Part shown: positions 16,832-20,210 of the stretch, in pieces
Numbering within the stretch: position 1 is the stretch's first letter
Layout: every line of letters starts with the position of its first letter
Assembly (NCBI RefSeq): GCF_018682675.1
Contig: NZ_JAFMTR010000042.1
Location: forward strand, 62,001-126,000
DNA: 64,000 nucleotides
Source: Sphingopyxis soli
GTDB lineage: Bacteria > Pseudomonadota > Alphaproteobacteria > Sphingomonadales > Sphingomonadaceae
Direction: 5' to 3'
Made by a program: the position numbers and the translations under genes
Notes under the pieces: generated by a model
Told to the model about the DNA's origin: nothing
Database searches by the model: none
What the model saw: only the letters and a program-made list of their open reading frames with translations

Positions 16832-17683
16832 TCAGGCGGCCTTTTCGGGCGCCAGATAGCCGATCAGGCGACCGAGCGTTTCGGGCAGGTCCTTGCGGTG
16901 GACCACCATGTCGATCATCCCGTGGTCGAGCAGATATTCGGCGCGCTGGAACCCTTCGGGCAGCTTTTCGCGGATCGTATTCTCGATCACGCGCTGGCCC
17001 GCGAAGCCGATCAGCGCGTTGGGTTCACTGATCTGGATGTCGCCGAGCATCGCATAGCTGGCGGTCACACCGCCGGTCGTCGGGTCGGTCAGCAGCACAA
17101 TATAGGGCAGGCCCGCCCGGCGGAGGCGCTGGAGCGCGACGGTCGCGCGCGGCATCTGCATCAGCGACAGCGTGCCTTCCTGCATTCGCGCGCCGCCCGC
17201 AGCGGTGATCGCGATATAGGGAACCCCGCGTTTGATCGCCTGTTCGACGCCCGCGACAAAGGCTTCGCCGACCGCGACGCCCATCGAGCCGCCCATGAAG
17301 GCGAAATCCTGGACGCCGATCACGACGCCTTGGCCCGAAATGCGACCGAACGCGTTCTTGTATGCGTCGCGGTCGCCGGTCTGCGCGCGCGCCGCCTTGA
17401 TGCGGTCGACATATTTCTTGGTATCGCGGAACTTCAGCGGATCCTCGGGCGCAGGTGGCGAGGCGATCGGTTCGTGCACGCCGCCGTCGAACAGCTGTGC
17501 AAAGCGCTCTTTCGCGCCGATGCGGTCGTGATGGTCGCAGCGCGGGCAGACGTTCAGATTGTCTTCCCATTCCTTGACGAACACCATCTGCTGGCACTGG
17601 CGGCATTTGTGCCAGAGATTGTCGGCGGTATCGCGCTTGGCGGTGAAGGGCAGGGCGTTGCGGACGCGGTCGAGCCAGCTCAT
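16832..17683 (-). CDS. accD: Acetyl-CoA carboxylase carboxyltransferase subunit beta
   Basis: AccD with AccA transfers the carboxyl group from biotin on AccB to acetyl-CoA, making malonyl-CoA for fatty acid synthesis. The 283-aa protein has the N-terminal four-cysteine zinc ribbon (CRQCQQM then CPRCDHH) and the carboxyltransferase core with [12 protein letters not shown] and SGGARMQEG-like [14 protein letters not shown]. The ATG at 17683 is preceded by AAGGAG and overlaps the trpA stop by 4 nt, so the two are translationally coupled. accA is not in the window. Confidence 0.96.
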
Positions 17684-18468
17684 GCGGCGATCTCCTTTGC
17701 GCCGTGGATAGCATCGGCGAGGGTGCGGGTGAAAGCCTCGACATGCGGCGCCGCGGCGTCGCCATGCTCGGCGATGATGTCGATGAGGGCCGATCCGACG
17801 ACGACGCCGTCGGCGACGCGCGCGATGGCGGCCGCCTGCTCGGGGGTGCGGACGCCGAAGCCGACTGCGACGGGAAGATCGGTCGCGGCCTTCAGCCGCG
17901 CGACGGCATCCTCGATGCTGGCTTGTGCCGCCTGCTGCTGGCCGGTGATGCCGGCGACCGAGACATAATAGAGGAAGCCGCTGGCGCCGCTGAGCACATC
18001 GGGCAGGCGCGCGGCGTCGGTTGTCGGCGTGGCGAGGCGAATGAGGTCGACGCCTGCCGCACGAAGCGCAGGGCCGAGTTCGGCATCCTCCTCCGAGGGA
18101 ATATCGACGCAAATGACGCCATCGAACCCGGCCTTCGCGCATTCGGCGGCGAACCATTCCGCGCCGCGGATCGTCATCGGGTTGGCATAACCCATCAGGA
18201 CAAGCGGCGTGTCGGGGTGGCGGCTGCGAAAATCTGCGGCGATCGCGAACAGGTCGGCGGTCGTCGTGCCCTTCGCCAAACTGCGGAGGTTCGCGGCCTG
18301 GATCGCGGGACCGTCGGCCATCGGATCGGTGAAGGGCATGCCGAGCTCGATCACATCGGCCCCGCCCGCGACGAGCGCGTCGAGGTTCGCCGCGGTGTCG
18401 CCGTCACCACCGGTGATGAAGGTGACGAGCACGGGACCTTTTGAAAAGGCCGAGGCGAAGCGAGTCAT
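17680..18468 (-). CDS. trpA: Tryptophan synthase subunit alpha
   Basis: TrpA cleaves indole-3-glycerol phosphate and channels indole to TrpB. The 262-aa TIM barrel has the catalytic Glu in [16 protein letters not shown] and the catalytic Asp in [13 protein letters not shown], and [10 protein letters not shown] in the phosphate-binding part. Its ATG overlaps the stop of the inserted DUF559 gene (ATGA), while the trpB stop lies about 425 bp upstream. In most genomes trpB and trpA touch directly; here a cassette separates them, so trpA expression now depends on read-through of two GC-rich hairpins and on coupling to the cassette gene. Confidence 0.96.
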
Positions 18469-18848
18469 ATAGCCCTCTCCCCTTCAGGGGAGAGGGTTGG
18501 GAGTGGGGCACGACCGACAAACAGCGCAAGCTGTTCCAGCACGCCTTCCATGTTCGTCATCACGTCCAAATTTGCAAATCTAATCACCCTGTAACCCTGT
18601 TCCTCGAAAAATACCGTCCGCGCCCGATCATAATCTTCCTGAAATCCATGCGTATCGCCATCGACCTCGACAACCACCATCGGATCTCTCGCCGAGACAT
18701 CCGCGATATACCGTCCAATAACCTTTTGTCGGCGAAACTTGATGCCGTGAAAGCGCTCGGCGCGGAGCTGGAACCAGAGGCGGAGTTCGGGTTCAGTCTG
18801 CTCGCGCCGCATCTTCTTCGCGAGTTCGATCAGCCGCCAGTCCCGCAT
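18465..18848 (-). CDS. DUF559 domain protein, Vsr-like PD-(D/E)XK nuclease fold
   Basis: This 127-aa protein belongs to DUF559, a family related to very-short-patch-repair (Vsr) endonucleases. The N-terminal segment (MRDWRLIELAKKMRREQTE) is followed by FRRQKVIGRYIADVSA (Asp50) and VVVEVDGDTHGFQ, in which Glu61 and Asp63 with His67 fit the catalytic D...ExD pattern, and then RVIRFANLDVM. Biochemical function of the family is poorly known. The gene sits in the trp operon between trpB and trpA, bounded by inverted repeats. The ATG at 18848 has GAGAGGGG upstream; an upstream in-frame extension would run through the repeat and is unlikely. Confidence 0.85.
   Translation of the reverse strand: MRDWRLIELAKKMRREQTEPELRLWFQLRAERFHGIKFRRQKVIGRYIADVSARDPMVVVEVDGDTHGFQEDYDRARTVFFEEQGYRVIRFANLDVMTNMEGVLEQLALFVGRAPLPTLSPEGERAI
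18469..18513 (+). repeat. Left terminal inverted repeat of the DUF559 cassette
   Basis: This 45-bp repeat starts ATAGCCC and contains the perfect palindrome at 18473-18496, with 10-bp arms CCCTCTCCCC and GGGGAGAGGG and a TTCA loop. It pairs with the copy at 18849-18893. It also encodes the C-terminal [13 protein letters not shown]-like tail of the DUF559 protein. Confidence 0.85.
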
Positions 18849-18893
18849 TCGTTCCCCTCTCCCACCCCTCTCCCCTGAAGGGGAGAGGGCTAT
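18849..18893 (-). repeat. Right terminal inverted repeat of the DUF559 cassette
   Basis: On the minus strand this copy differs from the left one at three positions (29, 36 and 41 of 45). Its palindrome is at 18866-18889 with a TGAA loop on the plus strand. The DUF559 ATG follows immediately at 18848, and the G-rich inner part of the repeat serves as its ribosome-binding site. Confidence 0.85.
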
Positions 18894-20113
18894 TATAGTG
18901 CCACCCCCAGCGCTTCCGCCACCGTGAAGATATCCTTGTCCCCCCGACCCGAGCAATTGACGATGATGATCTTGTCCTTGCCCAGCGTCGGCGCGATGCG
19001 TTCGGCGGCGGCGATCGCGTGCGCGCTTTCGAGCGCGGGGATGATGCCTTCGAGCTTGGTCAGCTTCTGGAAGCTCGCCAGCGCCTCGGCGTCGGTGACG
19101 GGTTCGTAGCGGACGCGGCCGATGTCGTGGAGCCAGCTATGTTCGGGGCCGATGCCCGGATAGTCCAGGCCCGCCGAGATGCTGTGCGCCTCGGTGATCT
19201 GGCCGTCCTCGTCCTGCAGCAGATAGGTCTTGTTGCCGTGGAGAATACCGGGGCGGCCGCCCGCGAGGCTCGCGGCGTGCTTGCCGTCCAGCCCTTCGCC
19301 GGCGGCTTCAACGCCGACAATCTCTACCTCGGCATCGTCGAGGAAGGGGTGGAACAATCCGATGGCATTCGATCCGCCGCCGACGGGGGCGATCAGCATG
19401 TCGGGCAGGCGGCCTTCGGCTTCGAGAATTTGCGCCTTGGCTTCGTCGCCGATCACCGACTGGAAATCGCGAACAAGCTCGGGATAGGGGTGCGGGCCCG
19501 CGACGGTGCCGATGATATAGAAGGTGTCGTGGACGTTCGCGACCCAATGGCGCAGCGCCTCGTTCATCGCGTCCTTCAGCGTCTTCGCGCCGCTCTCGAC
19601 CGCGACGACTTCGGCGCCGAGCAATTTCATGCGGAACACGTTCGGCTGCTGCCGCGCGACGTCGACCGCGCCCATGAAGATGGTGCAGGGCAGGCCGAAC
19701 AGCGCGGCGACGGTCGCGGTCGCGACGCCATGCTGCCCCGCGCCGGTCTCGGCGATGATCTTCGTCTTGCCCATCCGCTTCGCGAGCAGAATCTGGCCGA
19801 TGCAATTGTTGATCTTGTGCGCGCCGGTGTGGTTCAGATCCTCGCGCTTCAGATAGATTTTCGCGCCGCCGAGATGGTCGGTCAGCCGCTCGGCGAACCA
19901 CAGCGGGCTGGGACGGCCGACATAATGTTTCAGCAGATAGTCGAACTCGGCCTTGAACGCCGGATCGGCCTGTGCCGCACGATAGTGACGCTCGAGGTCG
20001 AGGATCAGCGGCATCAGCGTTTCGGCAACATAGCGGCCGCCGAACTGGCCGAAATGGCCGCGCTCGTCGGGTCCGGTGCGAAAGCTGTTCGGGAGGGTCG
20101 TCGTCTCAGTCAT
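18893..20113 (-). CDS. trpB: Tryptophan synthase subunit beta
   Basis: TrpB is a PLP enzyme that condenses indole with serine to make tryptophan and forms an alpha2-beta2 complex with TrpA. The 406-aa protein shows the PLP lysine in [26 protein letters not shown], the phosphate-binding loop GGGSNAIG and [17 protein letters not shown] 20113 is preferred because GGAA lies 6 nt upstream; ATGs at 20119 and 20125 are also in frame. The stop codon touches the right inverted repeat of the DUF559 cassette. Confidence 0.96.
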
Positions 20114-20210
20114 GATCATTTCCATCGGCAAGGTTGGAGCACGCGCTTCGAGATAGTCTCAAGCGATCAGCGCCATCGTTTGCCGATAGCCGTAACGGAG
20201 GCGAGCCGTG

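Follow-up and report, generated by a model that had tools for sequence, protein, structure and literature searches.

Two lines of earlier work meet at the locus described here. One concerns boxC/PIT/TM, a class of chromosomal repeats carrying an intrastrand triplex motif, in which a hairpin is followed by a purine tail that mirrors its purine arm. The motif is known from more than 260 genomes, with 23 copies listed for Escherichia coli MG1655, and inverted pairs of it have been described (PMC4666352). The accessible part of the same paper associates these repeats with genome instability, states that its survey turned up no mobility functions in the vicinity of motif copies, and reports the triplex of the E. 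coli motif in vitro, while an in vivo footprint gave no support for a stable triplex. The other line concerns DUF559 (PF04480), whose Pfam name is still ‘protein of unknown function’. Caulobacter VsrA carries DUF559 and is required for the SOS response when a cytosine methyltransferase is missing (PMC12907096, accessible part), so that a member of this family can harm DNA in a living cell. Here we describe a DUF559 gene bounded by two inverted repeats of the triplex type and lodged between trpB and trpA of Sphingopyxis soli (assembly GCF_018682675.1, contig NZ_JAFMTR010000042.1, positions 62,001 to 126,000; this whole stretch of 64,000 nucleotides is called the window). Genes of this family are associated with such repeats throughout the genus and beyond, and we lean towards the view that DUF559 proteins act on intrastrand-triplex repeats and cause their spread. 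This would constitute a system resembling RAYTs (tyrosine transposases associated with repetitive extragenic palindromes, REPs) and their REPINs (inverted REP doublets), built on a nuclease of the Vsr fold.

The unit and its two neighbours comprise the following features (window positions):

18465..18848, minus strand: DUF559 (PF04480) nuclease gene, 127 aa, ATG start, stop TGA overlapping the trpA ATG
18849..18893, minus strand: upstream arm, a 45-nt repeat of intrastrand-triplex type adjoining the trpB stop; complementarity to the downstream arm 93%
18866..18889, no strand: 11-bp hairpin of the upstream repeat, 2-nt loop
18854..18865, minus strand: purine tail GTGGGAGAGGGG of the upstream repeat, mirroring the purine arm of the hairpin; putative third strand, with the likely ribosome-binding site inside
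18469..18513, plus strand: downstream repeat arm, an inverted copy, encoding the last residues of the protein
18473..18496, no strand: 11-bp hairpin of the downstream repeat, 2-nt loop
18497..18508, plus strand: purine tail TTGGGAGTGGGG of the downstream repeat
18893..20131, minus strand: trpB, neighbour, stop TAA at the edge of the unit
17680..18468, minus strand: trpA, neighbour, start overlapping the DUF559 stop

A first-pass annotation of this DNA had described 45-bp inverted hairpin repeats bounding a unit that meets the trpB stop and the trpA start. The borders hold, trpB ending at 18893 and trpA starting at 18468, and so do the length and the inverted arrangement of the arms (18469-18513 and 18849-18893, 45 nt each, 335 nt apart, 93% complementary); the perfect stem, given as 10 bp, is 11 bp in both arms, with a 2-nt loop. 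With up to three mismatches allowed, the hairpin pattern has 2 copies in the 64 kb and 0 in 100 shuffles. These shuffles, together with the sham units presented below, led us to reject a chance origin of the repeats. The open reading frame 18465-18956(-) matches PF04480 with E=1.4e-33. The gene's ATG at 18848 lies 5 nt beyond the purine tail of the upstream repeat, within which GGAGAGGGG is likely the ribosome-binding site, whereas its last codons are supplied by the downstream repeat and its TGA overlaps the ATG of trpA. On these uses of the two repeats, the sequence agrees with what had been proposed.

The annotation had not mentioned the purine tail past the hairpin, which mirrors the stem: in the window, GGGGAGAGGG is followed by GGGAGAGGGG. 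The mirror score is 11 for the upstream tail (L018 U) and 7 for the downstream one (L018 D), each above all 30 shuffles. A purine/pyrimidine hairpin is present in 137 of 158 flanks of DUF559 genes of the genus, and the tail side is gene-ward in 137/137. The mean mirror score of these flank tails is 6.6, versus 3.1 for shuffled tails (p=1.6e-23); taken singly, 49 of the 137 flanks score above all 30 shuffles. Some repeat types display, when read by eye, a second hairpin in the loop between arm and tail. By this composition the window repeats are a Sphingopyxis variant of the intrastrand triplex motif of boxC, PIT and TM. The repeats adjoining DUF559 at three loci (L254, L259 and L308) have a C-rich tail outside the hairpin, the reverse of the usual orientation.

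DUF559 was the gene family examined for flanking triplex repeats, using an inverted-repeat score of at least 34 as threshold and sham units cut from the same loci. The family was found in 52 of 60 genomes of the genus, and inverted repeats flank 72 of the 79 Sphingopyxis DUF559 genes (76 loci), versus 2 of 199 sham units. Single linkage puts the 72 flanked genes into 19 site groups, so that they cannot be counted as 72 separate cases. We hold the association between DUF559 and the repeats to be real. Moreover, protein similarity correlates with repeat similarity among pairs at non-homologous sites (rho 0.43; 0/2000 permutations), 250 same-site pairs of 2,556 and the 7 of 79 genes with a score below 34 being excluded. 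Protein groups mostly have a single repeat type; one group of six carries two related types, and the type IV hairpin is common to two groups. Repeat type mostly follows the DUF559 subclade.

Among the matches listed for 7 of the 60 genomes, with two both-strand places and several single-place contigs set aside, type VI repeats form 34 inverted pairs less than 1 kb apart, hairpin-outward in 34/34, plus 2 same-strand neighbours. Thirty pairs are spaced by 71-121 bp and four by 397-405 bp, and all four of the latter coincide with DUF559 matches, one of them partial. As read from sequence, these size classes are the pattern of a gene-bearing unit with its short derivatives. Across the 60 genomes, type IV hairpins vary from 0 to 150 per genome (2,133 in total) and type VI hairpins, both strands summed, from 0 to 97. 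Counts are higher in genomes with the cognate gene, both for type IV (p=0.0013, the second protein group with a type IV hairpin not being counted as cognate) and for type VI (p=5e-5), type VI counts show no such relation to the type IV gene (p=0.6), and repeats are fewer in the 8 genomes without DUF559 (p=8e-5 and 0.005).

The window genome (3.63 Mb, 99.99% complete) holds the hairpin, with up to three mismatches, at 22 places, and the reversed control at 0. Sixteen of these places belong to eight doublets whose starts are 71-112 bp apart, four form two DUF559-flanking pairs (393 and 397 bp) and two are solo; seven of the eight doublets were read and all seven are inverted. The genome has seven DUF559 genes, all near such repeats by eye; six have a strong inverted pair by score, and L020 fails. 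Two of the checks suggested by the first-pass annotation are answered in this way: repeats flank DUF559 genes systematically, and both doublets and solo copies exist without the gene. No Y1 transposase (Y1_Tnp) was found in the window genome, and RAYT-driven REPs were rejected as the source there on this ground.

Two doublets of this genome (L014 and L005, on G000 C104 and C49, adding about 35 and 26 residues) sit in frame within coding sequences, one of them a glyS-like and the other a ligase-like gene (named by eye), and the frames remain open throughout. The targeting of gene junctions supposed by the first-pass annotation is not borne out by these two insertions. The ligase-like doublet is missing in 10 of 10 aligned relatives; the glyS-like one is missing in 8 of 9 and present in G049. 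At L007, the site is not plainly empty in relatives, because 11 aligned relatives have a shorter hairpin-like stretch there. Doublet insertion seems to have replaced from a few up to some tens of bases, and the presence of short gene-free doublets differs between strains and species. At L003, a reading frame is likewise open through a doublet.

The same arrangement extends to other taxa. Scanning named genomes with a single type IV protein as query yielded 73 loci, and after exclusion of L229 for its short flank, repeats were found at 67 of the 72 usable loci versus 0 of 138 sham units. These loci are mostly orthologues of one clade; outside it 16 of 20 pass, including loci from Rhizobium, Azospirillum, Reyranella, Omnitrophica and LCP-89. 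Of 299 genomes in a Pseudomonadota sample, 108 carry DUF559, and 69 loci from this sample were read (29 best matches and 40 hand-picked from the match list): 44 have repeats (27/40 in alphaproteobacteria, 17/29 elsewhere) versus 0 of 57 sham units. Five of 38 matching plasmid records, chosen as outside Pseudomonadota, were read without a sham set; these cyanobacterial and deinococcal copies score 98 (Deinococcus), 128 (Pseudanabaena), 34 (one Picosynechococcus), 29 and 27, the first three reaching the threshold. In viral contigs, a DUF559-like stretch is encoded at 2 of 6 loci, and the other 4 match the repeat-encoded tail only.

E. coli offers a case in which both partners have names, YcjD being a DUF559 protein (E 1.4e-49). 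In MG1655, ycjD has fabI and sapF as its neighbours and is separated by about 168 bp from the boxC copy TMECO 9; a second, decayed boxC copy is found at its 3′ end, and none was seen on the sapF side. At least 80% of the ycjD interval is present in 3,362 of 5,426 E. coli genomes. In 60 records evenly spaced down a ranking, one 655 kb fragment being excluded and the ycjD place itself counted, the query of ycjD and boxC finds 13-29 places (median 20) in 37 records with ycjD versus 1-15 (median 3) in 22 without it (p=2e-10). Four of the five doublet sites fetched from E. coli were searched across all genomes: the fepB-entC site is covered to at least 80% in 2,752 genomes and the shorter rows sampled (two of them aligned) lack 186 bp, while the alx-sstT, hrpB-mrcB and ygfF-gcvP sites are likewise strain-variable. 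Two strains have only one hairpin left where a doublet has collapsed. In E. coli ST95-32 (L321), which is without ycjD, the genes for a TetR-type regulator and an efflux function come after fabI in place of ycjD and sapF. The E. coli control genome of the PF04480 scans gave no match, although the MG1655 YcjD does match.

The AlphaFold2 model of the window protein has a mean pLDDT of 86.3. Its Foldseek matches are a DUF559 structure (3hrl, E 8e-8), then I-Bth0305I (3r3p), and further down Vsr (1vsr and 1cw0, E 0.027); Toxoplasma mitoribosomal proteins rank between the last two. In 33 DUF559 sequences D50, D63, H67 and R90 are invariant, and E21, E61 and D74 nearly so. By family match, predicted fold and conserved acidic residues, the window protein is a DUF559, Vsr-like PD-(D/E)XK nuclease. 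Median ratios of nonsynonymous to synonymous substitution (dN/dS) lie between 0.075 and 0.108 across five DUF559 groups. DUF559 copies with an internal stop exist at L021 (G000 C59), still bounded by strong inverted repeats, and at G008 C1:969641-969952. Other DUF559 matches lie within long open frames, of about 420 aa in G036, G038, G019 and G055 and of 682 aa in G042 C50, which may be fusions or simply frames left open by a high GC content.

The trpB-trpA junction was resolved in 50 of the 58 genomes with trpA: 5 hold the DUF559 unit (G000, G004, G022, G033 and G009), 14 a plain stop/start overlap and 31 other sequence, in one case (G041) a decayed solo hairpin. As for the empty site that the first-pass annotation had proposed to seek, most of the relatives read have no unit at this junction. 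Three of the five filled copies (G000, G009 and G033) were included in the protein grouping, where they fall together, and the site likely reflects one old insertion followed by losses. Short hairpin remnants before trpA are also seen in G049, G002 and, weakly, G056 (L057, L337 and L339), beside an inverted CGTCATCCCGGACTTGATCCGGGATC repeat pair; the junctions of G038, G050 and G047 (L338, L344 and L345) hold a different REP-like pair of about 208 bp. Repeats of a similar style occur at an nrdA-nrdB-like junction (L170, L172, L176 and L177).

In a comparison confined to the type IV clade and excluding L185, L219 and L228, 46 of 49 loci occupy one site, beside carA-like and dnaG-like genes (named by eye), across Sphingopyxis, Sphingomonas, Sphingobium, Novosphingobium and others; 45 of 48 loci link directly to L178 on both flanks. 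The three others, all of Sphingomonas (L198, L224 and, by one flank, L226), are located elsewhere, next to accD-like and folC-like genes, and carry the same repeats. Consequently the gene-bearing unit moves rarely, and a highly mobile nuclease cassette was rejected. The first-pass annotation had hesitated between a small mobile element and a repeat-gene pair: the pair, in the REP/RAYT style, is supported, whereas frequent movement of the whole nuclease cassette is not. From these comparisons, the DUF559 gene is under purifying selection and mostly inherited vertically at fixed sites.

We propose the following course of events. DUF559 would recognize the repeat when folded, in single-stranded or extruded DNA, and would cut or nick it. 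Repair of the break would then copy doublets into new places, without clear target-site duplication and often at the cost of a few bases there. The unit with the gene would serve as the source of the doublets, which would themselves move as non-autonomous elements. Between trpB and trpA, the repeats would supply the likely ribosome-binding site and keep the stop/start overlap with trpA, so that the trp operon can tolerate the insertion. Whether this holds across bacteria, with DUF559 proteins as lone Vsr-fold nucleases that recognize a folded or triplex DNA end and, as dedicated and selfish replicators of boxC/PIT/TM, spread gene-free doublets through break repair, and with YcjD/boxC as the E. 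coli form, is in our opinion an evenly balanced question.

Several observations weigh against the proposal that DUF559 spreads the repeats. Cleavage of the repeats and movement of doublets are inferred steps, and the authors of the VsrA study interpret their protein as acting in mismatch repair (PMC12907096, accessible part). No clear target-site duplication, of the kind expected for an insertion sequence or MITE pair, was found in comparisons of filled and empty sites in Sphingopyxis and E. coli, where flanks have diverged; the alignments that the first-pass annotation had called for gave no clean one. Seven of the 79 genes of the genus and 25 of the 69 Pseudomonadota loci score below threshold, and beside ycjD a decayed repeat pair is confined to one side. 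Type VI matches number 57 in G029 and 47 in G031, in which no DUF559 match reaches 70% identity, and G007 has 23 type IV hairpins and no DUF559. Type IV counts also weakly track the type VI gene (p=0.04). Shared ancestry was not removed from the count tests in the genus or from the E. coli comparison, and lineage is a confounder of the ycjD/boxC difference. Finally, genomes with Y1_Tnp have higher repeat medians than those without, 60 versus 26 for type IV (p=0.10) and 11 versus 4 for type VI (p=0.096), the differences being non-significant.

The last point bears on the possibility that another enzyme, such as a Y1/RAYT transposase or that of an insertion sequence, moves the repeats and that DUF559 was caught between them. 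Y1_Tnp occurs in 11 of the 60 genomes, with the slight excess of repeats just given; yet 49 are without it, among them the window genome as well as G055 and G051, the richest in the two counted hairpin types, and a passenger would not be expected to be one and the same family between differing repeat types in several phyla. We hold this to be improbable. Somewhat better placed, although still unlikely, is a host function in which DUF559 cuts or trims folded repeats that block replication, its own flanking repeats serving for autoregulation or marking its origin, while repeats spread by other means. Purifying selection and the long inheritance at one site (46/49) resemble a host function, the collapse of a doublet in two E. 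coli strains is what nuclease processing would allow, and the Caulobacter protein is linked to the SOS response (PMC12907096, accessible part). Such a guardian should, however, reduce the repeats, yet genomes with the gene hold more of them, and autoregulation leaves unexplained why a subclade mostly shows its own repeat type on both sides.

If DUF559 were instead a Vsr-type endonuclease for mismatches from deaminated methylcytosine, as proposed for VsrA, the repeats would be incidental. Vsr is among the fold matches and VsrA is genetically linked to the methyltransferase ScmA, but the mismatch role of VsrA is itself a prediction from structure and genetics (PMC12907096, accessible part), and incidental repeats would yield neither 72/79 versus 2/199 nor subclade-specific repeats; there is little chance, in our view, that this accounts for the data. 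Least probable is that the repeats are merely expression signals (ribosome-binding site, translational coupling, termination) suited to small genes at operon junctions. The window repeat does provide a likely ribosome-binding site and a stop/start overlap, and about 100 palindromes of this kind in an Enterobacter genome are presumed by its authors to act in termination (PMC2869309, accessible part). However, the 2,133 type IV hairpins far outnumber DUF559 genes, gene-free doublets vary between strains, and earlier work cited by PMC4666352, in its accessible part, detected no promoter or terminator activity of PIT elements.

A literature search on DUF559, REPIN/RAYT, GGGAGAGGG palindromes, triplex repeats and ycjD/boxC, with preprints and most subscription journals outside its scope, returned no title or abstract start linking DUF559 to repeats. 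In their accessible parts, PMC4666352 mentions neither DUF559 nor ycjD, and the VsrA paper (PMC12907096) does not contain the words palindrom, transpos or inverted repeat. DUF559 is a candidate for the enzyme that spreads an old, unexplained class of chromosomal repeats, and linking it with boxC/PIT/TM provides both with a role that can be tested in E. coli K-12, where ycjD is a single gene and doublets vary by strain. If this is true, it would also offer another way to understand the SOS response that VsrA causes in Caulobacter. To our knowledge, it would add a mobile class whose enzyme lies outside the HUH, DDE and serine/tyrosine enzymes.

The locus shares features with several described systems. 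With I-Bth0305I, the DUF559 protein has in common the fold of the catalytic domain (3r3p, second-best Foldseek match, E 7.2e-4); unlike a homing endonuclease, it lies in no intron or intein, and this identity was ruled out, the unit being placed between two intact genes. The fold of Vsr (1vsr, 1cw0) is similar and VsrA shares the DUF559 domain (PMC12907096, accessible part), whereas Vsr is associated with TG mismatches and a partner methyltransferase, and the neighbours of the window gene are trpB and trpA. The CGTC-tagged REPs are mostly alphaproteobacterial and were reported without dedicated transposase, but they differ from the window repeats by stems of 8-9 bp that start with A/T pairs and by their CGTC tag (Di Nocera 2013, PMC3733652, accessible part). 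With boxC/PIT/TM, the window repeats have the same hairpin and mirror purine tail, TMECO 9 lying beside E. coli ycjD (PMC4666352, accessible part), while being a Sphingopyxis variant of that motif. As for REPIN/RAYT, described here from the accessible part of PMC3733652 and from general knowledge, both systems have a dedicated gene flanked by inverted palindromic repeats, gene-free inverted doublets elsewhere, a repeat type matched to the gene lineage and a mostly vertical inheritance of the gene. They are distinguished by the enzyme, a PD-(D/E)XK nuclease of the Vsr fold (PF04480) here and an HUH Y1 enzyme there, and by the repeats, which here combine purine/pyrimidine hairpins with a mirror tail and whose two window copies carry no GTAG at the base of the hairpin. 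By these features the DUF559-repeat system is not RAYT/REPIN; if its enzyme acts on the repeats as proposed, it would work like RAYT/REPIN.

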